Positions 36,453 to 47,994 of a stretch of DNA of 64,000 nt are shown here, in pieces; within the stretch, counting starts at the first letter, position 1, and each line of letters opens with the position of its first letter. The stretch comes from Ramlibacter sp. (GTDB taxonomy: Bacteria; Pseudomonadota; Gammaproteobacteria; Burkholderiales; Burkholderiaceae_C): NCBI GenBank assembly GCA_030695945.1, contig JAUYOG010000023.1, positions 62,001 to 126,000 of the forward strand, read 5' to 3'. The translations under genes and the position numbers were made by a program. The notes beneath the pieces were generated by a model. It was given only the letters and a program-made list of their open reading frames with translations. It had not been told where the DNA came from and ran no database searches.

Positions 36453-37607
36453 ATGGCAGCAGTGTTCGAAAAACCCCCCATCACGCACCGGCTGGCCCCG
36501 ATGCTGCAAGGCTTCGACGGGCCACTGGCGTTTGCCGTGTTCCTGCTCGCCTGCGCCGGGCTGTTGACGATGTATTCGTCGGGATTCGATCACGGCACTC
36601 GCTTCGCCGACCACAGCCGCAACATGGTGCTCGCGGGCGTGATCATGTTCGTGGTGGCCCAGGTGCCGCCGCAGCGGCTCATGAGCTTCGCCGTGCCGCT
36701 CTATACCGTGGGCGTGGCGCTGCTGATCGCGGTGGCGATCTTCGGCCTCACCAAGAAGGGGGCGAGGCGCTGGCTCAACGTCGGCATCGTGATCCAGCCC
36801 AGCGAGATCCTGAAGATCGCCACGCCCCTGATGCTGGCCTGGTGGTTCCAGAAGCGCGAATCCCAGATGCGGCCCCTTGACTTCCTGGTGGCCGGCATCC
36901 TGCTGGCGATCCCGGTCGGCCTGATCGTGAAGCAGCCGGACCTGGGCACGGCCATCCTCGTGATGGTGGCGGGCCTGTCCGTGATTTTTTTCGCGGGCCT
37001 GTCGTGGAAGCTGATCGTGCCGCCGGTGGTGCTCGGCATCGTGGCCGCGGTGCTGCTGATCGTGTTCGAGGACCAGCTGTGCGCCGCGGGCGTGCGCTGG
37101 CCGATCCTGCACGACTACCAGCAGCAGCGGATCTGCACATTGCTGGACCCCGGCAAGGACCCGCTCGGCAAGGGCTTCCACATCATCCAGGGCATGATCG
37201 CGATCGGCTCCGGGGGATTCCTCGGCAAGGGGTTCATGCCGGGCACGCAGACCCACCTGGAATTCATCCCCGAGCGGACGACCGACTTCATCTTCGCGGC
37301 GTTCTCGGAGGAGTTCGGCCTCGTCGGCAACCTGTGCCTGATCGCCGGCTTCCTGTTCCTGGTGCTGCGGGGGCTGGCCATCGCGCTTGAAGCTTCGACG
37401 GTGTTCTCGCGGCTGCTGGCCGGTGCGATCACCATGATCTTCTTCACCAACGCTTTCGTGAACATGGGCATGGTGAGCGGCATCCATCCCGTGGTGGGCG
37501 TGCCGCTGCCCTTCATCAGCTATGGCGGCACGGCCATGGTCACGCTGGGCATGGGCCTGGGGATCCTGATGTCGATCTCCAAGGCCAAGCGACTGGTGCA
37601 GTCATGA
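36453..37607 (+). CDS. rodA: SEDS peptidoglycan glycosyltransferase RodA
   Basis: The elongasome lipid II polymerase that pairs with PBP2; 384 residues (E. coli 370), about ten membrane helices. Motifs are TKKGARRWLNVGIVIQPSEILKIATP, VKQPDLGTAILV (catalytic Asp) and QQQRICTLLDPGKDPLGKGFHIIQGMIAIGSGG. HPVVGVPLPFISYGGTAM follows; the GARRWL and PSE motifs are shared with FtsW. It is divergent from the YqiA-like gene with a 49-bp gap. The usual mreBCD/mrdA neighbours are not downstream here and may lie elsewhere. Confidence 0.93.
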   Translation: MAAVFEKPPITHRLAPMLQGFDGPLAFAVFLLACAGLLTMYSSGFDHGTRFADHSRNMVLAGVIMFVVAQVPPQRLMSFAVPLYTVGVALLIAVAIFGLTKKGARRWLNVGIVIQPSEILKIATPLMLAWWFQKRESQMRPLDFLVAGILLAIPVGLIVKQPDLGTAILVMVAGLSVIFFAGLSWKLIVPPVVLGIVAAVLLIVFEDQLCAAGVRWPILHDYQQQRICTLLDPGKDPLGKGFHIIQGMIAIGSGGFLGKGFMPGTQTHLEFIPERTTDFIFAAFSEEFGLVGNLCLIAGFLFLVLRGLAIALEASTVFSRLLAGAITMIFFTNAFVNMGMVSGIHPVVGVPLPFISYGGTAMVTLGMGLGILMSISKAKRLVQS

Positions 37608-37611
37608 AACA

Positions 37612-37700
37612 CCCCCCGAAGCGCCTGCGGCGCCTCCCCCCTCAAGGGGGGCGACACCAGCGGCCCGGCGAAACCGGTTCCGCGGTGTCCCCCGAAGGGA
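37612..37700 (+). repeat. Dispersed element B, copy 1
   Basis: CCCCCCGAAGCGCCTGCGGCGCCTCCCCCCTCAAGGGGGG...CGGCCCGGCGAAACCGGTTCCGCGGTG. It contains three palindromes (GCGCCTGCGGCGC, CCCCCCTCAAGGGGGG, ACCGGTTCCGCGGT). A near copy lies at 52805-52890. It fills most of the gap from rodA to the dehydrogenase gene. Confidence 0.7.
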
Positions 37701-37751
37701 GCGCGCCGTTTCGTGCGTCGCGAGTCACGCGCAGCGCGGTGGGGAACTGAG

Positions 37752-38626
37752 ATGAGAGGAGTCGCCATCGTCGGCGTCGGCAACATGGGCGGCGCGATCG
37801 CGCGGCGCCTGCTGGACCAGCGCTGGCCGGTGCAGGTGTTCGACGTCGACGCGGCCAAGGTCGCGGCATTGCAGGCGCTGGGCGCCGGCGGCCGCGGCGA
37901 CGCTGCCGCGGCGGTGGTGGGGTGCGGCGTCCTGGTCGTTTGCGTGGTGGATGCGGCCCAGGTCGAGGACGTCCTGTTCGGCCCCCGTGGCGCGGCGCAG
38001 GTGATGCGGGCGGGACAGGCCGTGCTGCTGTGCCCGACGATCGCGCCCGGCGACGTGGAGGATTTCGCCCGGCGCCTCGGAGAGCGCGGCATATCGGCGA
38101 TCGACGCGCCCATGTCCGGCGGCCCCGCACGCGCCCGGGACGGCTCCATGAGCCTGATGGTCGCCTGCGACGAGGTGGTTTTCGAGCGCCAGCGCATGGT
38201 GATCGAGGCCATGAGCAGCAAGGTGTTCCGCATCAGCGGCAGCCCCGGCGACGGCGCGCGCACCAAGCTGGTCAACAACCTGCTCGCCGGCATCAACCTG
38301 GCAGGCGCGGCCGAGGCCCTGGCGATGGCGCAGCGCCTGGGCCTGGACCCCGCCGGCACCTCGACGTGATCGAGCAATCCAGCGGCCAGAGCTGGATCGG
38401 CTCGGACCGCATGCGGCGCGCGATCGCCGGCGACTATGCGCCGCGCGCCCACGTCACCCTGTTGCAGAAAGACACCCGGCTTGCCGTGGAAGCCGCCGCC
38501 GCCGCCGGTTTCATCGGGCCGCTCGGGCCGGCCGCGCGCGACGTGTTCGCGCGCGCGGCCGCCGCGGGCCTGGGCGACCTCGATGACGCGGCCCTGTTGC
38601 GGTTGCTCTCGGAGCCGGGCCGCTAA
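37752..38626 (+). pseudogene. Beta-hydroxyacid dehydrogenase family gene with -1 frameshift
   Basis: An NAD(P)-dependent 3-hydroxyisobutyrate dehydrogenase-family protein split by a frameshift. Frame 1 (37752-38369) gives MRGVAIVGVGNMGGAIARRLL (Rossmann), APMSGGPARARDGSMSLMV and KLVNNLLAGINLAGAAEAL (catalytic Lys), then stops after LGLDPAGTST. The missing C-terminal part continues in another frame as LDVIEQSSGQSWIGSDRMRRAI...LLSEPGR, ending at 38626. One extra C near 38358-38361 (GGCACC(C)TCGACGTG) would restore a 291-residue protein of normal family length. Either the gene is newly broken or the base was lost in sequencing or assembly. The start at 37752 is the only ATG before the Rossmann motif that leaves element B out of the gene. 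Confidence 0.8.
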
Positions 38627-38668
38627 ACTGGGGCCTGGCCGCGGTACAGAGGAGGCGGCCCGCCCCCC

Positions 38669-40756
38669 ATGACGCAAATCCTGATCGTCGAGGACGACGA
38701 CGCCATCCGCAACAACATCATCCGGCTGCTCAAGCTGGAGGGCTACGACATCGTGTCGGCCATCAACGGCCGGTTGGGGCTGGAGCGCGCGCGCGAAATG
38801 CGCCCCGACGTGGTTATCTCCGATGTCAGCATGCCGGAGATGGACGGCTTCCAGCTGCTGGAGGCGATCCGGGCCGACCGCGACCTCGCGGCCACCTCCG
38901 TGATGCTGCTCACGGCGTTGGACGACCGTGCCAGCATGCGGCGCGGCATGACGGCGGGCGCCGACGATTACCTGGCCAAGCCGTTCACCCGGCTGGAACT
39001 GCTGGAGGCGCTGGAGGGGCTGCTCAGGAAGAAGGGCCGCATCGAGGAGACCATCGAGTCGGCCGTCAAGGCGCGCGAGGAGCACCTGCGCCGCGCGTTC
39101 ACGGAAAGCCTTGGCGGCACGGCCCTTCCGGACAAGTTCGCCCTGGAGGCGCCGCATGGGGCGATCCCCGACACGGTCATCGAGGCGACGGTGCTGTTCT
39201 CCGACATCCGCAACTTCACTTCGCTCGCCGAGAAGCTCAGTTCCCCCGAGGTGGCTGAACTGCTCACCGAGTATTTCGAGCGCACCTGCGAGCCCGTTCT
39301 CAAGAACGGCGGCCGCCACCTGAAGTTCATCGGCGACGGCCTGATGAGCGTATTTGCCGATACTTTGAGCGGAGGCTCGCCGCTGCCGGCGTCGCGCCGC
39401 GCGGTCTCGGCGGCGCTGGGCATGGCGCTGGCCACGCACGAGTTCCGCGGCTGGCTGGACCGGCGCTTCGGGCAGCGCGGCCTGCCGCCGTTCGCCATCG
39501 GCGTCGGGCTGCATGCCGGCGAAGTCACGATCTGCCGGCTGGGCACCATCCACAACAAGGAAACCACGCCGATCGGCGATACGGTGAACGTCGCGGCGCG
39601 CCTCGAGGCGGCGAGCAAGGAGCTGGGCTGGACCGTGGTTGCCAGCAGCGCGGTGCTGGGCACGGCCGGCGACGGCGTCCAGACCGGCGGCATGACGTCG
39701 CTCGCCGTGCGCGGCAAGAACGCATTCGTCGACGTCGCGGAGATCACCGGGCTGGTGACGAACATCGACGATCAGCGCCACGGCATGGCGACCCTCACCG
39801 AGCGCGCCGGCGAGGTGCGCGACGCGGTGCAGGTGAATTCGGAGATCACGGCCCGCGCCGTCAAGGGGGCGCTGCAGTCCAAGCTGTCGGCATTCAAGGA
39901 CCACCAGTTCGAGTCCGGGCAGGCCCCCCTGCGGCTCAAGGGTTATTGCCTCAGCCGCAAGATCGGCTCGGGCGGCATGACCGAGGTGTACCTGGCCGCC
40001 CGCGAAAGCGACGACCTGCCGGTCGTGCTCAAGGTGCTGGACGCCAGCGGCAAGGCGGCCAGCGAGCACCTTTCGCGCTTCATCCAGGAGTACGCGCTGC
40101 TGTCGCGGATCGAGCACCCGAACGTCATCCGGATCTACGACCAGGGCTTCACCGACGACCACGCGTACATCGCGATGGAGTATTTCGAGCAAGGGGACCT
40201 GCGCGCGGAGATCGCCGCGGGCATGAGCCAGCAGCGCGTGCTGGCGATCGTCGCTCAGGCGGCGCAGGCGCTGGCGGCGATCCACGAACGCGGCGTGATC
40301 CACCGGGACCTGAAGCCCGAGAACATCATGCGCAGGCCCGACGGCAGCGTGGCGCTGGCGGACTTCGGCATCGCCAAGTCGATGCTGCAGGCCGAGAACA
40401 TGGCGCTGACGCAGACGCGGCACGGCGATGTCGTGGGAACGCCGTACTACCTGAGCCCCGAGCAGGCCACCGGCCAGGTGATCACGCCGCGGTCCGACCT
40501 GTACAGCCTCGGGGTCATGATGTTCGAGATGCTGGCCGGCGAACGGCCCTTTCGCGCCGAGTCGCTGGACCTGCTGTTGGCGCGCCATCTGACGGCCCCG
40601 ACGCCCGCGCTGCCGCCCGCGCATGCGGCGCTGCAACCGGTCGTCGAACGGCTGATGGCCAAGAAGCCGGAGGACCGTTACGAGTCCGCGCTGGGCCTCT
40701 TGGCGGACCTGGACCAGAGGGCGCTGCTGCAAACCGTTACGGGGCCAAAAGCCTAG
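38669..40756 (+). CDS. Response regulator - adenylate cyclase - Ser/Thr protein kinase fusion
   Basis: One protein of 695 residues with three signalling domains. Residues about 1-125 are a receiver: acidic pocket VEDDD, phospho-acceptor Asp52 in VISDVSMPEMDG, and Lys in YLAKPF. About 165-365 are a class III nucleotide cyclase. It has metal Asps in FSDIRNFTS (about 179) and FIGDGLM (about 222), the purine-binding Lys in LKFIGD and Asp in PIGDTVN, and the transition-state Asn/Arg in NVAARLE (about 306 and 310). Lys plus Asp points to ATP, so cAMP. About 425-680 are a Hanks-type kinase: KIGSGGMTEVYLA, VVLKVL, IHRDLKPENIM, LADFGIAKS and the activation segment GTPYYLSPEQ. All catalytic residues are present. 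No adjacent histidine kinase was found. A GAGGAGG site lies about 13 bases upstream of the ATG. Confidence 0.9.
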   Translation: MTQILIVEDDDAIRNNIIRLLKLEGYDIVSAINGRLGLERAREMRPDVVISDVSMPEMDGFQLLEAIRADRDLAATSVMLLTALDDRASMRRGMTAGADDYLAKPFTRLELLEALEGLLRKKGRIEETIESAVKAREEHLRRAFTESLGGTALPDKFALEAPHGAIPDTVIEATVLFSDIRNFTSLAEKLSSPEVAELLTEYFERTCEPVLKNGGRHLKFIGDGLMSVFADTLSGGSPLPASRRAVSAALGMALATHEFRGWLDRRFGQRGLPPFAIGVGLHAGEVTICRLGTIHNKETTPIGDTVNVAARLEAASKELGWTVVASSAVLGTAGDGVQTGGMTSLAVRGKNAFVDVAEITGLVTNIDDQRHGMATLTERAGEVRDAVQVNSEITARAVKGALQSKLSAFKDHQFESGQAPLRLKGYCLSRKIGSGGMTEVYLAARESDDLPVVLKVLDASGKAASEHLSRFIQEYALLSRIEHPNVIRIYDQGFTDDHAYIAMEYFEQGDLRAEIAAGMSQQRVLAIVAQAAQALAAIHERGVIHRDLKPENIMRRPDGSVALADFGIAKSMLQAENMALTQTRHGDVVGTPYYLSPEQATGQVITPRSDLYSLGVMMFEMLAGERPFRAESLDLLLARHLTAPTPALPPAHAALQPVVERLMAKKPEDRYESALGLLADLDQRALLQTVTGPKA

Positions 40757-40765
40757 AATGACCCG

Positions 40766-42226
40766 ATGATTTCCCGCGAACCCACCATCGAGCGCCTGGC
40801 CACGGCGCAACGCCTCCTGCTGGAGCCTTTCGGCCTGACCGAAACCCACCTGTCGCGCGCCCTCGCCGAGATCGCCACGCACAGGGTTGATGACGCCGAC
40901 CTGTATTTCCAGTACACGCGCAGCGAAGGCTGGAGCCTGGAAGAGGGCATCGTCAAGACGGGCAGCTTCAGCATCGACCAGGGCGTCGGTGTTCGGGCCG
41001 TGAGCGGCGAGAAAACGGCCTTCGCCTATTCCGACGATATCTCCGAGTCGTCGCTGATGGACGCCGCGCGCACGGTGCGCACCATCGGCGCGGCGGCCGG
41101 CCAGGGCCGCGTGAAGGTGGCCACGCGCAAGATCGCGGGCGGCCGCTCGCTGTATGGCGGCGTGGATCCCATCTCCACGCTCGACAGCACGGCCAAGGTG
41201 CAATTGCTGGAGCGTGCCGAGAAGTTGGCCCGCTCCAAGGACCCCCGGGTGGCCCAGGTCATGGCGGGACTGGCCAGCGAGTACGACGTGGTCATGGTCG
41301 CGCGTGCCGACGGCACCCTGGCAGCGGACGTACGTCCGCTGGTGCGGCTGTCGATCACCGTCATTGCCGAGCAGGACGGCCGGCGCGAGGTCGGCTCCGG
41401 CGGCGGCGGCGGCCGTTTCGGCTTGGCCTACTTCGATGACGAGCGCATCGAAAGCTACGTGGACGACGCGGTCAGGGCCGCGCTCACGAACCTCGAGTCG
41501 CGTCCCGCGCCAGCGGGGGAGATGACCGTGGTGCTCGGCCCCGGCTGGCCCGGCATCCTGCTGCACGAGGCCATCGGCCATGGCCTGGAAGGCGACTTCA
41601 ACCGCAAGGGCTCGAGCGCGTTCTCCGGGCGCGTGGGCAAGCGGGTGGCGGCCAAGGGGGTCACTGTCCTCGACGACGGGACGATCGCGGACCGCCGCGG
41701 CTCGCTGAACGTGGACGACGAGGGCAACGCCAGCCAGCGCACCGTGCTCATCGAGGACGGTATCCTGCGCGGCTACATCCAGGATTCGCTCAATGCGCGC
41801 CTGATGGGCGTGACGCCGACCGGCAACGGCCGCCGCGAAAGCTACGCGCACGTCCCGATGCCGCGCATGACCAACACCTACATGCTCGGCGGCGACCGCA
41901 AGCCCGACGAGATCGTGGCCAGCATCAAGAAGGGCCTCTATGCGACCAATTTCGGCGGCGGGCAGGTGGACATCACGTCGGGAAAGTTCGTGTTCTCGGC
42001 CAGCGAGGCCTTCTGGGTCGAGAACGGCAAGATCCTCTACCCGGTCAAGGGCGCCACGATCGTCGGCAACGGGCCGGACGCGCTGACGCGCGTGACCATG
42101 ATCGGCGACGACATGGCGCTGGACACCGGCGTGGGCACCTGCGGCAAGGAGGGCCAGAGCGTGCCGGTGGGCGTGGGCCAGCCGACACTGCGCATCGACG
42201 GCCTGACCGTCGGCGGCACGGCCTGA
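40766..42226 (+). CDS. tldD: Metalloprotease TldD
   Basis: A zinc protease subunit of the TldD/TldE complex, known for microcin/peptide maturation and CcdA degradation in E. coli; 486 residues. The metal motif HEAIGHGLEGD (HExxxH, about residues 263-273) and the conserved GGGGRFGLAYFDD, NAVARLMGVTPTGNGRRESY-type segment (here LNARLMGVTPTGNGRRES) and MRMTNTY-like stretch PMPRMTNTYMLGGD are present. The C-terminal GDDMALDTGVGTCGKEGQSVPVGVGQPTLRI is typical. tldE/pmbA is not in the window. The gene follows the fusion kinase by 9 bases and may share its transcript. Confidence 0.95.
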   Translation: MISREPTIERLATAQRLLLEPFGLTETHLSRALAEIATHRVDDADLYFQYTRSEGWSLEEGIVKTGSFSIDQGVGVRAVSGEKTAFAYSDDISESSLMDAARTVRTIGAAAGQGRVKVATRKIAGGRSLYGGVDPISTLDSTAKVQLLERAEKLARSKDPRVAQVMAGLASEYDVVMVARADGTLAADVRPLVRLSITVIAEQDGRREVGSGGGGGRFGLAYFDDERIESYVDDAVRAALTNLESRPAPAGEMTVVLGPGWPGILLHEAIGHGLEGDFNRKGSSAFSGRVGKRVAAKGVTVLDDGTIADRRGSLNVDDEGNASQRTVLIEDGILRGYIQDSLNARLMGVTPTGNGRRESYAHVPMPRMTNTYMLGGDRKPDEIVASIKKGLYATNFGGGQVDITSGKFVFSASEAFWVENGKILYPVKGATIVGNGPDALTRVTMIGDDMALDTGVGTCGKEGQSVPVGVGQPTLRIDGLTVGGTA

Positions 42227-42235
42227 AGAGATGTT

Positions 42236-42303
42236 GGCCCCCACGCTCCCAGTGGTCGCTGCCCCCCGAGGGGGCCTGGCCCTGCTTGGGAGCGGCCCGG
42301 CGC
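42236..42303 (+). repeat. Dispersed palindromic element A, copy 4
   Basis: GGCCCCCACGCTCCCAGTGGTCGCTGCCCCCCGAGGGGGCCTGG...CTTGGGAGCGGCCCGGCGC. It has the same orientation as copy 1 and fills the gap after tldD. Confidence 0.65.
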
Positions 42304-42307
42304 AGGG

Positions 42308-42889
42308 GTGACCGCGCGGCGGACAGAACGCATGGCCCGCGACCCGCGCCTTCCGATCGACCCGTCCACCAACCTGCCGAGCATCCACTCGTTCGGCGAG
42401 CTGAGCAACTTCCTGCGCGGCTCCGTCGCCGACGAGGACAGCCGGCATTTTTCGGACAGCATGAGCCAGCTCGCGGTGCACATCGAGGCGATCATCGCGG
42501 GCCTGCGCCTGAACCGCGCGCGCGTCACGGTCGCGCCGATGCTGGTGGACCTGCTCACGGTCGTGCGCGGCCACCGCAACCTCGTCGTCGGGCTGGGGCT
42601 GCCCTGGCGCGGCCTCTATGAATATGCCGCCTACCTGCAGGCGCTGAACAACTTTCGCGTCCTGATCGGCCAGTGGCTGCTGGACGGCGGTCCGCGCAGC
42701 GCGCAGCTGCTGGTCTCTGCCGAGGACTTCGAGCTGGTGGCCTGGCGCACGCTGGGCGAAGGCATGCTGCTGATCGACATGTACGAGCAGTGGGCGGGCA
42801 GCGATCACCCGGAGCAGTCCTCCCTGGCGTCCCTGAGCGAGCCGCAGGTGGAGCGCGCGCTGCAATGGTGGAAGAAGCTGAGGCTGTAG
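42308..42889 (+). CDS. Conserved-looking protein of unknown function
   Basis: A protein of up to 193 residues with no recognised family. It is soluble and largely helical (EDSRHFSDSMSQLAVHIEAIIAGLRLNRARVTVAPML...), with a hydrophobic middle (VVGLGLPWRGLYEYAAYLQALNNFRVLIGQWLL). It ends with SEPQVERALQWWKKLRL. The start may be GTG 42308, at the end of element A, or ATG 42332 eight codons later; neither has a strong ribosome-binding site. Codon use fits the neighbours, and the ORF stops just 32 bases before the aroG leader peptide. It may be cotranscribed with tldD. Confidence 0.6.
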   Translation: MTARRTERMARDPRLPIDPSTNLPSIHSFGELSNFLRGSVADEDSRHFSDSMSQLAVHIEAIIAGLRLNRARVTVAPMLVDLLTVVRGHRNLVVGLGLPWRGLYEYAAYLQALNNFRVLIGQWLLDGGPRSAQLLVSAEDFELVAWRTLGEGMLLIDMYEQWAGSDHPEQSSLASLSEPQVERALQWWKKLRL

Positions 42890-43093: not shown

Positions 43094-44218
43094 ATGAATG
43101 CCAAAGCCACGGCCGCCAGCGAAGGCTGGTATGCGCACCCCGTCGACAAGACCAGCGAGACCGACGACGAGCGCATCAAGGACATCACCGTGCTGCCCCC
43201 TCCGGAACACCTGATCCGCTTCTTCCCGATCCACGGGACGGCGGTGGAAGCGCTGATCACCGACACACGCCGCAACATCCACAACATCATGGCCGGCAAG
43301 GACGACCGCCTGCTCGTCGTGATCGGCCCCTGCTCGATCCACGATCCCGGTGCGGCCCTCGACTACGCGCGCCGGCTGAAGGAGGCGCGTGGAAAGTACG
43401 CCGGCACCCTGGAAATCGTGATGCGGGTCTATTTCGAGAAGCCGCGCACGACCGTCGGCTGGAAGGGCCTGATCAACGACCCCTACCTCGACGAGAGCTA
43501 CCGCATCGACGAGGGCTTGCGCATCGCGCGGCAGCTGCTGATCGAGATCAACCGCCTGGGCCTGCCGGCCGGCAGCGAGTTCCTGGACGTCATCTCGCCG
43601 CAGTACATCGGCGACCTGATCTCCTGGGGCGCGATCGGCGCGCGCACGACGGAAAGCCAGGTGCACCGGGAGCTTGCGTCGGGCCTCTCGGCGCCGATCG
43701 GCTTCAAGAACGGCACCGACGGCAACATCCGGATCGCCACGGATGCGATCCAGGCGGCCGCCCGCGGGCACCATTTCCTGTCCGTGCACAAGAACGGCCA
43801 GGTGGCGATCGTGCAGACCAACGGCAACAAGGACTGCCACGTGATCCTGCGCGGGGGCAGGGCGCCCAACTACGACTTCGCCAGCGTGGCGGCGGCCTGC
43901 AAGGACCTGGAAGCGGCCAGGCTGCCGCAGACGCTGATGGTCGATTGCAGCCATGCCAACAGCAGCAAGCAGCACGACAGGCAGGTGGACGTGGCGCGGG
44001 ATATCGCCGGCCAGGTCGCCAGGGGGTCGCACTGCGTTTTCGGCGTGATGGTGGAAAGCCACCTGAACGCCGGCGCCCAGAAGTTCACGCCCGGCAAGGA
44101 CGATCCGGCCGCGCTGGACTACGGCAAGAGCATCACGGATGCCTGCCTGGGCTGGGGCGAGTCGCTCCAGGTGCTCGACCTCTTGTCCGATGCCGTCAAG
44201 GCACGCCGTCTCCTCTAA
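43094..44218 (+). CDS. aroG: 3-deoxy-7-phosphoheptulonate (DAHP) synthase
   Basis: A class I (AroFGH-type) DAHP synthase joining phosphoenolpyruvate and erythrose 4-phosphate, the first step of aromatic synthesis; 374 residues (E. coli AroG 350). Motifs are VVIGPCSIHDPGAALDYA, MRVYFEKPRTTVGWKGLINDPYLD and GARTTESQVHRELASGLSAPIGFKNGTDGN. HVILRGGRAPNYD and DCSHANSSKQ carry metal and substrate residues. A GAGAGGAG site lies before the ATG at 43094. Expression is probably controlled by the leader peptide and terminator upstream; the enzyme may also be feedback inhibited, but the isozyme type (Phe, Tyr or Trp) cannot be read safely. Confidence 0.95.
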   Translation: MNAKATAASEGWYAHPVDKTSETDDERIKDITVLPPPEHLIRFFPIHGTAVEALITDTRRNIHNIMAGKDDRLLVVIGPCSIHDPGAALDYARRLKEARGKYAGTLEIVMRVYFEKPRTTVGWKGLINDPYLDESYRIDEGLRIARQLLIEINRLGLPAGSEFLDVISPQYIGDLISWGAIGARTTESQVHRELASGLSAPIGFKNGTDGNIRIATDAIQAAARGHHFLSVHKNGQVAIVQTNGNKDCHVILRGGRAPNYDFASVAAACKDLEAARLPQTLMVDCSHANSSKQHDRQVDVARDIAGQVARGSHCVFGVMVESHLNAGAQKFTPGKDDPAALDYGKSITDACLGWGESLQVLDLLSDAVKARRLL

Positions 44219-44241: not shown

Positions 44242-44270
44242 TTTACATAAAGTAACGTTTGGGGTAGATT
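44242..44270 (+). promoter_or_regulatory. Candidate sigma-70 promoter before the tandem paralogues
   Basis: TTTACA (44242-44247), a 17-base spacer and TAGATT (44265-44270) in an unusually AT-rich stretch after aroG. The start of transcription would fall near 44277, about 33 bases before the ATG of the first paralogue. Confidence 0.5.
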
Positions 44271-44309: not shown

Positions 44310-45323
44310 ATGACCATTGAACATCCTGTGCTGCGCCTGGGCCTCGCCGGTTTCTCGGCACGGGAGCAGGACGAGATCAGGGCGGCCGTTCCGGCCGTCG
44401 CCCCGGGAGTGCCGTGGGTGCTGGCCGAACTCGGCGACGCCGATGCATGGTGGGTGAATGGCTCGCGACTGCGCATGCTGGACGAGGCGACGGTCAAGGT
44501 CGCCGCTGCGGAGGCGACGGCCCGATCCCTGCGCCTGCGGTTGCCCGACATCGACCGGCCGGTGGCGTTCACGCTGCCGCTCTCCTGCGAGGGGTTGCCG
44601 CCCGCGTACACCCTGGACGTCGCGTCGGGCGACAGCATGGCGGCTGTTCTCGGCAAGTTCGAGGACTGGCTGTCGCCCCTGACGGCGCAGTTGTGCCTGG
44701 CCTCGCACATCGTCGAGCACCAGGCCGCGCTGGGCAGCGGCATCTTCGAGGTGAGGCTGGACGGGCGGCTCCTCGCGGTGGTCGACATGCATGGCGAGGC
44801 CGGCGTGCTGCCCGGCACCGGGCCGGCGGATTTCGAGGATGCCGAATGGCGGCGGCGGGCCTCGCGCCACGTGCCCGAGGACCTCGCGCACGCCAGCATG
44901 TCGCAGCTGATGTGGCAATACAGCGTCCGCACCCAGCGGGACTTGCTCCCGCGCCATTACCGCACGGGCTTGCTCTATTTCCGGCGTCCGCCGCGGCTGC
45001 CGAACCGCCTCCTGCGCGACTCCCACCTGTTGCTGATGCGCGAGCTGGCGGGCGGGCCGGCGAGCTTCCAGGCGCTGCAGCGCGCTACCGGCCTGCACCC
45101 CGCCCGGCTTGCCCAGGACCTGGCCGCCCTGTATTTCGTCGGAACGATCACCTCGAACCCGAAGCGGGCGCCCCTGTACCAGCTGCCCCGCGCCGACCAC
45201 GTCGACCTGGCCACTGCGCACAGCAGCCTGCCTTCGGGCCTGGACTCCGGACTGCCGCGAGAGGACGGTCGCGCAGCCAGCCGGTCCGACTTGACGGCGC
45301 CGGCACCCCTTGAACGGCATTAG
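44310..45323 (+). CDS. Unknown protein, tandem paralogue 1
   Basis: A protein of 337 residues, not recognised. It is clearly homologous to the next gene. Shared blocks are GDADAWWVNG (about residues 42-51), DRPVAFTLPL (about 82-91), LLPRHYRTGLLYFRRPPRLPNRLLRDSHLLLMREL (about 215-249) and the C-terminal DLTAPAPLER. The N-terminal 50 residues have the beta-alpha-beta look of a degenerate receiver-type domain (LRLGLAGFSAREQDEIRAAV). The region about 240-290 (FQALQRATGLHPARLAQDLAALYFVGTI) looks like a winged helix. Both domain guesses are inference. It has its own candidate promoter and a 119-bp gap to paralogue 2. Confidence 0.75.
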   Translation: MTIEHPVLRLGLAGFSAREQDEIRAAVPAVAPGVPWVLAELGDADAWWVNGSRLRMLDEATVKVAAAEATARSLRLRLPDIDRPVAFTLPLSCEGLPPAYTLDVASGDSMAAVLGKFEDWLSPLTAQLCLASHIVEHQAALGSGIFEVRLDGRLLAVVDMHGEAGVLPGTGPADFEDAEWRRRASRHVPEDLAHASMSQLMWQYSVRTQRDLLPRHYRTGLLYFRRPPRLPNRLLRDSHLLLMRELAGGPASFQALQRATGLHPARLAQDLAALYFVGTITSNPKRAPLYQLPRADHVDLATAHSSLPSGLDSGLPREDGRAASRSDLTAPAPLERH

Positions 45324-45442
45324 CCGCGGGGCCGGTTTTCTCCCCCAAATGGGGGGCGACGGGTGCAGCCGGACGCGCCATGATGGGGCGGCGAGGCGGG
45401 GGCGCCTCGGTATGAAAGCACCAATAACAAGGAAGTACCCCG

Positions 45443-46501
45443 GTGAGAGAAGAAAAGACAGCCGGCGCAGCTGTGGAGCAGCCGATCCTCTGGCTTGGCA
45501 TGGCGGGCTTCGCTCCGCAGGAGCGGACCGTGCTCGAGGCTTCGCTGGACCGCTACGGCGGCCTGCCGCGCTGGCGTCCCAGCGCGTTCGGGGATGCCGA
45601 CGCCTGGTGGGTGAACGGCGCCAAGGTGCGGCCGACACCGGAAGGCAACCTGAAGGTCTCGCCCGGGATGCCCACCGAGCACACGCTGAACCTCAACCCC
45701 AGCGAAGTCGACCGGCCGATCGCCTTCGCCTTGCCGCTGGTCGGTGACGACTTCGAGCCGAGGTATACCTTCGACCCCGTGTCGCAGCCCAGCATCGACG
45801 GCGTGCTGTCGCAGTTCGACCATTGGCTCTGGCTTGTCCGCGCGCAATTCGTGCTGGGGGCGCAGATCATCGACCGCGCCACGACGCTGCGCCGCGACGT
45901 TTATCACGTGGGCCACGCCGGCAGGCTGCTTGCGGTGCTCGATTTTCACCACGGCAAGGCGGCGCTCGCGCCACGCGCGCATCCTGTCGACCTCTGGCAG
46001 GCCCAATGGCTCAAGCGTCCGATCGGGGCCCATGGCCTGCCCGAAAGTTTCGTGCCGATGACGCCTGCGCACCTGACCTGGACGTACGTGCGGCGCACGG
46101 ATCGCAACATGCTGCCCGAGCGCTACCGCACGCAGACGATCTACTACCGCCATGTTCCGGGCGTTCCCCTGTGGTGGCTGCGGGACTCGCAGCTCATGCT
46201 GCTGCGGGAGCTCTCGGCCGAGCCCGGGACCATCGAGGCACTGCGACAGCGCACCGGCTTGCCGCTCGGGACCATCGAGCACGACCTGAGTTGCCTCTAT
46301 TACGCCTACGCCATCACGACCACCCGGGAGAAGGCTGCGGCGCCAGTTGCCTCGCCGCACGAACGCCAGGCGCCTTCTTCCCAATCGATGATGGATTCGG
46401 TGTTCAGCAACCAGTCGCGCCCGTCGCAGCCGCATCGCGACCTGACGGCGCCCGCGCTGCTGGAACGACGGAAGCCCGCCGACCCGGACCCGGCGGACTA
46501 G
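45443..46501 (+). CDS. Unknown protein, tandem paralogue 2
   Basis: A protein of 352 residues paralogous to the preceding gene. It shares the N-terminal block ILWLGMAGFAPQERTVLEASL, GDADAWWVNG, DRPIAFALPL and LPERYRTQTIYYRHVPGVPLWWLRDSQLMLLRELSAEPGTIEALRQRTGLPLGTIEHDLSCLYYAYAIT. The end DLTAPALLER is followed by a short charged tail. The segment before the tail (about 300-335) is Ser/Gln-rich and probably disordered, so the kept C-terminal motif may be a docking peptide. The start is GTG 45443, with AAGGAAG about 9 bases upstream. The stop TAG shares CTAG with the convergent mpl stop. Function unknown. Confidence 0.75.
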   Translation: MREEKTAGAAVEQPILWLGMAGFAPQERTVLEASLDRYGGLPRWRPSAFGDADAWWVNGAKVRPTPEGNLKVSPGMPTEHTLNLNPSEVDRPIAFALPLVGDDFEPRYTFDPVSQPSIDGVLSQFDHWLWLVRAQFVLGAQIIDRATTLRRDVYHVGHAGRLLAVLDFHHGKAALAPRAHPVDLWQAQWLKRPIGAHGLPESFVPMTPAHLTWTYVRRTDRNMLPERYRTQTIYYRHVPGVPLWWLRDSQLMLLRELSAEPGTIEALRQRTGLPLGTIEHDLSCLYYAYAITTTREKAAAPVASPHERQAPSSQSMMDSVFSNQSRPSQPHRDLTAPALLERRKPADPDPAD

Positions 46502-47883
46502 GCTGCTTCGCGCTGCGGCGCCGCCAGCGCGCCCAGCAGCTTCGCGTGCACGTCCCCGAAGCCGCCGTTGCTCATGCACAGGATGTGGTCACCGGGGCGG
46601 GCCACCTGCGCGACTTCCCGCACCACCTCATCGATGGAGGCGCACACCCGGGCCCGCCCGCCCATGGGCGCGAGCGCTTCCGCCGCGTCCCATTCGAGGC
46701 CGCCACTGTGGCAGAAGGAAAGGTCCGCCTGCTCGAGGCTCCAGGGCAGCTGCGCCTTCATGGCGCCGAGCTTCATGGTGTTGCTGCGCGGCTCGAACAC
46801 CGCGAGGATCCGTTGCGCGCCCACCTTGCGGCGCAGGCCATCGACGGTCGTGCGGATCGCCGTAGGATGGTGGGCGAAATCGTCGTACACCGTGACGCCG
46901 GCGACGCTGCCCCGCACCTCCATGCGCCGCTTGACATTGCGGAACTCGCGCAGCGCGCGGGCGGCGGCTTCCGGCGGGACGCCGACATGCTCGGCGGCGG
47001 CGATCGCTGCCAGCGCGTTGAGCTGGTTGTGCACGCCGGTGAGCTCCCACTCCACGCGGGCGACCGGCTTGCCGCGTTCCAGCACGTCGAAGCTGTGCGG
47101 CTCGCCTTGCGCGCAGAAATCGCTCACGGCGGCGCCGAAGCTGCGCAGCTCGCTCCAGCACCCCATGTTCAGCACGCGCTGCACGCTCTCCTCCAGGCCG
47201 TTCGCGATCACCCGCCCGCTGGACGGCACGGTGCGCACCAAGTGGTGGAACTGCCTCTCGATCGCCGGCAGGTCGTCGAAGATGTCGGCGTGGTCGAACT
47301 CGAGGTTGTTGAGGATGGCCGTTCGCGGGCGGTAATGGACGAACTTGCTGCGCTTGTCGAAGAATGCCGTGTCGTACTCGTCGGCCTCGATCACGAAGCT
47401 CTTGCCTTGCCCCAGCCGGGCCGAGATGCCGAAATTGGTAGGCACGCCGCCGACCAGGAAGCCGGGCTGCAGCCCTGCGTGTTCCAGGATCCAGGCGAGC
47501 ATGGACGTGGTGCTGGTCTTGCCGTGCGTCCCGGCCACCGCCAGCACATGCCGGCCCTGCAGCACGTGCTCGGACAGCCACTGGGGCCCGCTGGTGTAGG
47601 GCAAGCCGGCATCGAGTATGGCCTCCATCAGCGGGTAGCGCGGCGTGCCGTCGGGCTTGCGCGCGCGTGACACGACGTTGCCCACGATCCAGGCGTCGGC
47701 CTGCAGCGCGAGCTGGTCGGCACCGAAGCCTTCGATGAGGTCGATGCCCAGCGCGCGCAACTGGTCGCTCATGGGCGGGTACACGCCGGCGTCGCAGCCC
47801 GTGACCTTGTGGCCCGCCTCGCGGGCTAGTGCGGCAAGGCCTCCCATGAACGTGCCGCAGATGCCGAGGATATGGATGTGCAT
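46498..47883 (-). CDS. mpl: UDP-MurNAc:L-Ala-gamma-D-Glu-meso-DAP ligase Mpl
   Basis: A murein-recycling ligase that attaches recovered tripeptide to UDP-MurNAc; 461 residues (E. coli 457). The start MHIHILGICGTFMGGLA is diagnostic. The ATP loop AGTHGKTSTTSMLAWIL, EADEYDTAFFDKRSKFVHYRP, NLEFDHADIFDDL and DDFAHHPTAIRTT follow. The track ORF starts 30 codons too early, inside element A; ATG 47883 fits the family N-terminus. It is related to murC in the dcw cluster and feeds the same pool of UDP-MurNAc-tripeptide. Confidence 0.95.
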   Translation of the reverse strand: MHIHILGICGTFMGGLAALAREAGHKVTGCDAGVYPPMSDQLRALGIDLIEGFGADQLALQADAWIVGNVVSRARKPDGTPRYPLMEAILDAGLPYTSGPQWLSEHVLQGRHVLAVAGTHGKTSTTSMLAWILEHAGLQPGFLVGGVPTNFGISARLGQGKSFVIEADEYDTAFFDKRSKFVHYRPRTAILNNLEFDHADIFDDLPAIERQFHHLVRTVPSSGRVIANGLEESVQRVLNMGCWSELRSFGAAVSDFCAQGEPHSFDVLERGKPVARVEWELTGVHNQLNALAAIAAAEHVGVPPEAAARALREFRNVKRRMEVRGSVAGVTVYDDFAHHPTAIRTTVDGLRRKVGAQRILAVFEPRSNTMKLGAMKAQLPWSLEQADLSFCHSGGLEWDAAEALAPMGGRARVCASIDEVVREVAQVARPGDHILCMSNGGFGDVHAKLLGALAAPQREAA

Positions 47884-47921
47884 CGAGCGATTATCCAAGC
47901 TTCGTCGCAGGAACTGAGCGA

Positions 47922-47994
47922 CGCCGGGCCGCCCCAAGGCGCGAACGCCCCCTCGGGGGGCAGCGAACCACACGCAGTGGGGAGCGTGGGGGCC
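47922..47994 (-). repeat. Dispersed palindromic element A, copy 5
   Basis: CGCCGGGCCGCCCCAAGGCGCGAACGCCCCCTCGGGGGGCAGCG...GAGCGTGGGGGCC, between mpl and the acyl-CoA ligase. Its first 40 or so bases match the copy inside ftsL almost exactly. Confidence 0.7.

Follow-up and report, generated by a model that had tools for sequence, protein, structure and literature searches.

Chemoreceptors carry NWETF tails that bind CheR, and the Comamonadaceae include the cyst-forming, gliding bacterium Ramlibacter tataouinensis. This organism encodes three BLUF proteins, together with two chemotaxis systems for which a role in gliding has been proposed (PMC3164672). Atypical receivers that lack the phospho-accepting Asp, for example RitR, are common (PMC4395418). 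In DgcB, the ligand of an FHA domain is a disordered tail in which a conserved Thr has Glu at −2 and a hydrophobic residue at +3 (PMC6733907), and around Thr sites that depend on mycobacterial PknA, Pro at +2, Leu or Val at +3 and acidic upstream residues are enriched (PMC7164672).

The window analyzed here, a stretch of 64,000 nucleotides of Ramlibacter sp. DNA, contains two intact tandem paralogues (genes 1 and 2) whose products align end to end, tail included, with 37% identity (125/342, E 4e-69). This alignment bore out the claim of a preliminary description of the DNA that the two proteins share GDADAWWVNG, DRPxAFxLPL, an LLP.RYRT...RDS.LLL.REL block and DLTAPA.LER; its statement that only the second protein has a low-complexity linker was not borne out, as the linker is present in both. 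The features of the locus are as follows:

38669..40756, plus strand: hybrid of REC, class III cyclase and Ser/Thr kinase, 695 aa, the proposed kinase, 3.5 kb upstream of the pair
43094..44218, plus strand: DAHP (3-deoxy-7-phosphoheptulonate) synthase gene, recognized by eye from its sequence, bordering the conserved locus on the left
44242..44270, plus strand: sigma-70-like promoter match TTTACA-17-TAGATT upstream of gene 1, a consensus match only
44310..45323, plus strand: gene 1, ATG start, 337 aa, with a degenerate receiver-like N-domain, beta-rich middle, winged-helix-like end, low-complexity linker and tail DLTAPAPLERH
45288..45311, plus strand: gene 1 tail motif D-L-T-A-P-A-P-L, residues 327-334
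45443..46501, plus strand: gene 2, GTG start, 352 aa, same architecture as gene 1, from the other ancient clade
46439..46462, plus strand: gene 2 tail motif D-L-T-A-P-A-L-L, residues 333-340, in a linker predicted to be disordered
46498..47973, minus strand: convergent gene for an Mpl-type murein peptide ligase, recognized by eye from its sequence, bordering the conserved locus on the right

The DAHP synthase gene is separated from gene 1 by 91 bases and gene 1 from gene 2 by 119 bases; the 3' end of gene 2 overlaps the convergent mpl gene by four bases. The promoter candidate proposed earlier for gene 1 was recovered at 44242-44270, where one such consensus match was found and 0.1 expected. 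Also within the window are a conserved protein of 185-193 aa without a Pfam match (42308-42889), flanked by tldD and the DAHP synthase gene, and, on the minus strand at 37520-42865, an open frame of 1781 residues that lies opposite real genes; it is an artefact of G+C content, of the kind that a naive gene caller would retain.

Neither protein matched any Pfam (at E 5), NCBIfam, PHROG or PADLOC model, so that no clear match to a characterized family emerged from these profile libraries, and we conclude that the pair belongs to an undescribed protein family without any profile. A similarity to TssK (NCBIfam, E 0.07) was rejected as far below the cut-off, and a phage or defence origin was rejected on the PHROG and PADLOC results and because no copy lies on a plasmid. 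The genome that contains the window (79% complete) has these two family copies and no others. Family members occur in 50 of 60 Ramlibacter genomes, in one to six copies each, and 15 of 151 genomes of a wider Comamonadaceae sample gave a match; those relatives that carry a name are Ramlibacter. Outside the Comamonadaceae, about 400 genomes of the order yielded winged-helix fragments only, with marginal E-values; these apparent matches span the winged helix alone and, where read, were ArsR-, MarR- or DprA-like, and were rejected as members. The family is thus confined to the Comamonadaceae in the genomes sampled (no members outside), as the preliminary description had supposed it might be.

The standard position of the family is between the DAHP synthase (aroG) and mpl genes. 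In a tree of 83 members, genes 1 and 2 fell in two different ancient clades, which rejects a recent tandem duplication; the gene 2 clade also includes members from other genera (genomes G133, G051, G002 and G040), and the copies from chemosensory operons group in a single clade (support 100/99), which nests with that of gene 1. The earlier suggestion of a regulatory pair, taken as a fixed pair, found no support: many genomes have only one of the two genes, the clades are old and separate, and single copies are dispersed. In draft genome G196 (9% contamination; closely related, to judge from its kinase, 89%), five bases separate the DAHP synthase gene from mpl and both family genes are missing, and this clean junction indicates that the pair is dispensable there; region L233 (G196:C143) is a natural empty site in a close relative. 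In genome G199 (region L083), several diverged family copies are found near one another, of which two are in tandem and lack a clear tail motif; this suggests local expansion and decay.

The AlphaFold model (52 relatives) had a mean pLDDT of 88, with values under 50 for the stretch that comprises the tail motif and the residues directly before it (314-345 of gene 2). The N-terminal third has a receiver-like order of elements with extra beta hairpins, and Foldseek returned weak matches to the receivers 3kht and 3cu5 (E 0.08-0.19, TM to target 0.41-0.53); all of its receiver matches were weak (E 0.07 or worse, TM to target 0.31-0.53). The site equivalent to the phospho-Asp, placed by motif at gene 2 position 58, is most often N (30 of 52 relatives), followed by H, E, S, D (in only 3) and Y. 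The REC profile (PF00072) matched neither protein, nor was it among the families matched by the 52 relatives. Of the earlier proposal of a degenerate receiver-like start, therefore, the order of elements, the weak fold matches and the mostly replaced Asp stand, and a sequence match to REC is missing; because of the latter, we regard a degenerate receiver as a plausible description of the modelled N-terminal domain rather than a proven one. Asp-less receivers such as RitR (PMC4395418) have in common with the family the receiver-like order of N-terminal elements, Asn as the commonest residue at the phospho-Asp site, and a regulatory context; the family differs from them in the lack of a REC profile match and in its extra beta hairpins, beta domain, non-basic winged helix and conserved Thr tail. 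No whole-chain fold match was found in the PDB or among viral models at E under 0.001.

In the model, the C-terminal domain consists of three helices followed by a strand pair. A winged-helix fold is supported by DprA_WH, matched by 15 of 52 members (best E 9e-5), by other HTH profiles also matched in relatives, and by ArsR-type PDB chains that match this domain with E 0.03. Such similarity, the standard response-regulator layout of receiver plus winged helix, and the commonness of Asp-less receivers (PMC4395418) would suit DNA-binding transcription regulators with an atypical receiver, whose tail contacts RNA polymerase or controls dimerization. We consider that reading improbable: the middle beta domain is foreign to the response-regulator layout, family copies sit between CheA and CheW, the putative recognition helix, LGTIEHDLSCLYYA, is hydrophobic, and the net charge of the winged helix, calculated from sequence, is centred on 0 across the family. 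With a net charge near zero, a DNA-binding regulator is not indicated and the winged helix probably does not bind DNA; of the earlier description, the winged-helix end is retained and the DNA-binding regulator is not.

A distant member (region L023:661-2016, plus strand) has a BLUF domain fused to the middle and winged-helix core of the family (Pfam E 1.5e-17), and is possibly a photosensor with an unnamed output domain. It resembles BLUF photosensors with output domains in that BLUF is joined to the middle/winged-helix core; the window proteins differ from them in carrying the receiver-like domain where BLUF would be. BLUF genes also adjoin family or core genes in region L079 and, by eye, in L147.

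A strongly conserved feature outside the folded body is the tail motif, which in its usual form, D-x-TAPAPL, ends a linker of 50-60 residues predicted to be disordered. Of the 82 distinct family tails that are 25 residues or longer, 67 had the pattern T[AVLMI]P..[LIMFV], versus a mean of 3.7 and a maximum of 10 in 500 composition shuffles, and 50 had D.T[AVLMI]P, versus 0.8 and a maximum of 5; these shuffles preserve the composition of the tails but not their relatedness. The motif is thus retained in orthologues, and T335 of gene 2 is in the columns at least 90% conserved among the 52 relatives even though it lies outside the folded part. When the 67 tails were aligned on this Thr, position −2 was D in 50, +1 was A, V, L or M, +3 was A in 47, +4 was P in 39 and +5 was L in 56; E at +6 occurred in 19 of 67, so that the "LER" of the preliminary description does not extend to the family as a general part of the motif. 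A weaker upstream motif, [LMWF][DE]S, was seen in 28 of 82 tails versus 6.3. Some members in other genera (regions L005, L009 and L018) lack the tail. A search of the window's own genome (79% complete) for further proteins with the tail, made with a degenerate DNA pattern, gave four matches; two were the pair, and neither of the others was real, both being chance matches, one antisense to a real gene and one overlapping the purK start. The distance from the motif to the C-terminus ranges from 8 to 29 residues and is mostly 8-13. A processing or degradation signal, such as a C-terminal tag read by a protease, would fit the C-terminal position and the small hydrophobic composition; that distance varies, however, and a motif of the same kind is internal to another protein, between the two domains of a double receiver, making a signal of this type highly improbable.

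Comparison with the FHA-read Thr tails of DgcB, GarA and OdhI (PMC6733907) gave a mixed result. Shared are a conserved Thr in a disordered tail (67 of 82 tails; pLDDT under 50), an acidic residue at −2 (D in 50 of 67) and the presence of Ser/Thr kinases in the genome. A large hydrophobic residue at +3 was not found in the family, where this position is Ala in 47 of 67. The family further differs from those proteins in having no FHA domain of its own, Pro at +2, Leu at +5 and a C-terminal rather than N-terminal tail; its phosphorylation is presumed here.

Six of the regions read have a family gene inside or beside a chemosensory operon (L160/L218, L163, L169, L179, L175 and L181), and these operons include one or two Ser/Thr kinases. 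The order in L218 and L163 is cyclase-type Ser/Thr kinase, second Ser/Thr kinase, double receiver, CheY, CheA, family gene, CheW, MCP, CheR, CheD and CheB; genes in the neighbourhoods were called with a simple codon-score script, and the domains of the main L218 genes were confirmed by Pfam. Che operons whose first genes encode two Ser/Thr kinases and a double receiver, the first domain of which is degenerate (L218:7793-19499, L163, L169 and L220), were seen in about half of the genus. In L157 the double receiver directly adjoins a family gene, and other family copies lie near single-domain receivers (L172, L174, L177, L180 and L092). Most motif-bearing copies, however, are at the aroG-mpl locus rather than in Che operons.

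The linker between the two receivers of the double receiver holds a motif of the tail kind in 23 of 30 orthologues by pattern and in about 21 by inspection. In three orthologues the linker reads EDDTMPAPLEP, EDETMPVPLEP or LDETAPAPLVA; the others are mostly of the DDEGTLPLG type (for example DEGTLPLGR) or the E[ED]xTxPLGR type, most double receivers have Leu at +3, and one of those with the motif has Ser in place of Thr. About eight orthologues have no motif, and both kinases were still present in the one such operon inspected. Among 193,065 residues of neighbouring non-family genes, [DE]xT[AVMLI]P occurred 13 times, and 4 of the 13 were double receivers. Compared for a possible common origin, the N-domains of the family and the double receiver aligned with an hhalign probability of only 15.7; a single-sequence model of the double receiver (pLDDT 36) was uninformative. 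Because a disordered tail and an inter-domain linker are not homologous positions, the likeness would come from a common binding partner or kinase and not from shared ancestry. The proposal of a C-terminal docking peptide is thereby supported as one of a short linear motif, and strengthened by recurrence in another protein. Because the motif recurs in a different protein of a sensory cluster that has a related kinase, the tail probably serves as a docking signal or as the target of a kinase.

A Thr written by a kinase would agree with the Pro at +2 and the acidic upstream residues, features that the tail shares with PknA-dependent sites (PMC7164672), and with the precedent of DgcB (PMC6733907). 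Less readily reconciled with phosphorylation are Ala at +3 and the strong Leu at +5, so that docking independent of phosphorylation is the main rival; the tail would then bind to a folded protein, be it a receiver, CheW/CheA, the kinase or a paralogue. A binding groove would suit the conservation of L at +5 nearly to the level of T (56/67) and P at +2; most tails end 8-13 residues beyond the motif, and region L054 carries two consecutive copies, DRTAPAPLVTDRTMPAPLMPE. The NWETF pentapeptide of chemoreceptors offers a parallel, being likewise a short peptide at the C-terminus, borne on a flexible linker in a chemosensory setting, whereas the family tail differs from it in sequence, sits on a non-receptor protein and is common to the double receiver. 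Against such docking are the replacement of Thr by Ser in one double receiver and the location of the motif beside Ser/Thr kinases; AlphaFold leaves the tail undocked on its own body (pLDDT 40-52), and no partner domain was identified. On this balance we think it possible but somewhat unlikely.

The hybrid kinase of the window (38669-40756) shares 40% identity across 514 residues with the cyclase-type kinase of the Che operons and, on this sequence identity, is a member of the same subfamily; its HRDLKPEN and ADFG motifs are intact by eye. The gene is conserved upstream of tldD in many Ramlibacter genomes. This subfamily was present in 47 of 50 Ramlibacter genomes with the family versus 2 of 10 without it (Fisher 2.6e-6, not corrected for phylogeny), a co-occurrence that may be inflated if the genomes without the family form a divergent branch. 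The two family-less genomes that keep the kinase are G196 and G185; in G185 the kinase lies at a contig edge, so that the place where the family genes would be expected falls outside the contig. At the thresholds applied, the subfamily was missing from genomes G051 and G204, both of which have the tail motif; in G051 one kinase outside the subfamily is present. Ser/Thr kinases and FHA domains in general were uninformative as to co-occurrence, because all 17 of the 17 genomes tested have both. Elsewhere in the window's own genome (L214; G000:C53:139000-152000) is a cluster of a 906-aa frame with a Ser/Thr kinase domain, a PP2C-phosphatase-like protein, an FHA protein and a cyclase-like protein; its FHA protein is a candidate reader of the tail.

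We propose that the family members are signalling adaptors whose tail Thr is phosphorylated by, or docks to, a Ser/Thr-kinase/chemosensory network, and give this reading a probability of roughly 40%. Each protein would consist of a folded body, with degenerate receiver-like, small beta and winged-helix-like domains, a disordered linker and the Thr peptide D-x-T-(A/V/M/L)-P-A-P-L. Cyclase-kinase hybrids, one of them encoded 3.5 kb upstream of the pair, would either phosphorylate the tail Thr or use it as a docking site. The tail would next be bound by a chemosensory component or by a reader of phospho-peptides, for which the FHA protein of the genome is an example, and binding would link the kinase branch with the output of receivers and of the chemosensory system. 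Phosphorylation, the reader, the direction of signalling and the cause of tail conservation are what we infer from these patterns. A broader idea, which we find rather unlikely, is that eukaryotic-type kinases in Ramlibacter are coupled to chemosensory signalling by a phospho-threonine code, with acidic-x-T-x-P-(AP)L placed on two unrelated proteins, the family tails and the double-receiver linker, and written by cyclase-kinase hybrids of the same operons.

To our knowledge, the targets of bacterial Ser/Thr kinases are mostly unknown. If true, our proposal would supply a concrete, testable substrate motif for such kinases and a physical link between them and Che-type pathways, in a family without a profile that, within one bacterial family, is repeatedly attached to signalling genes: Che operons, single receivers and BLUF.
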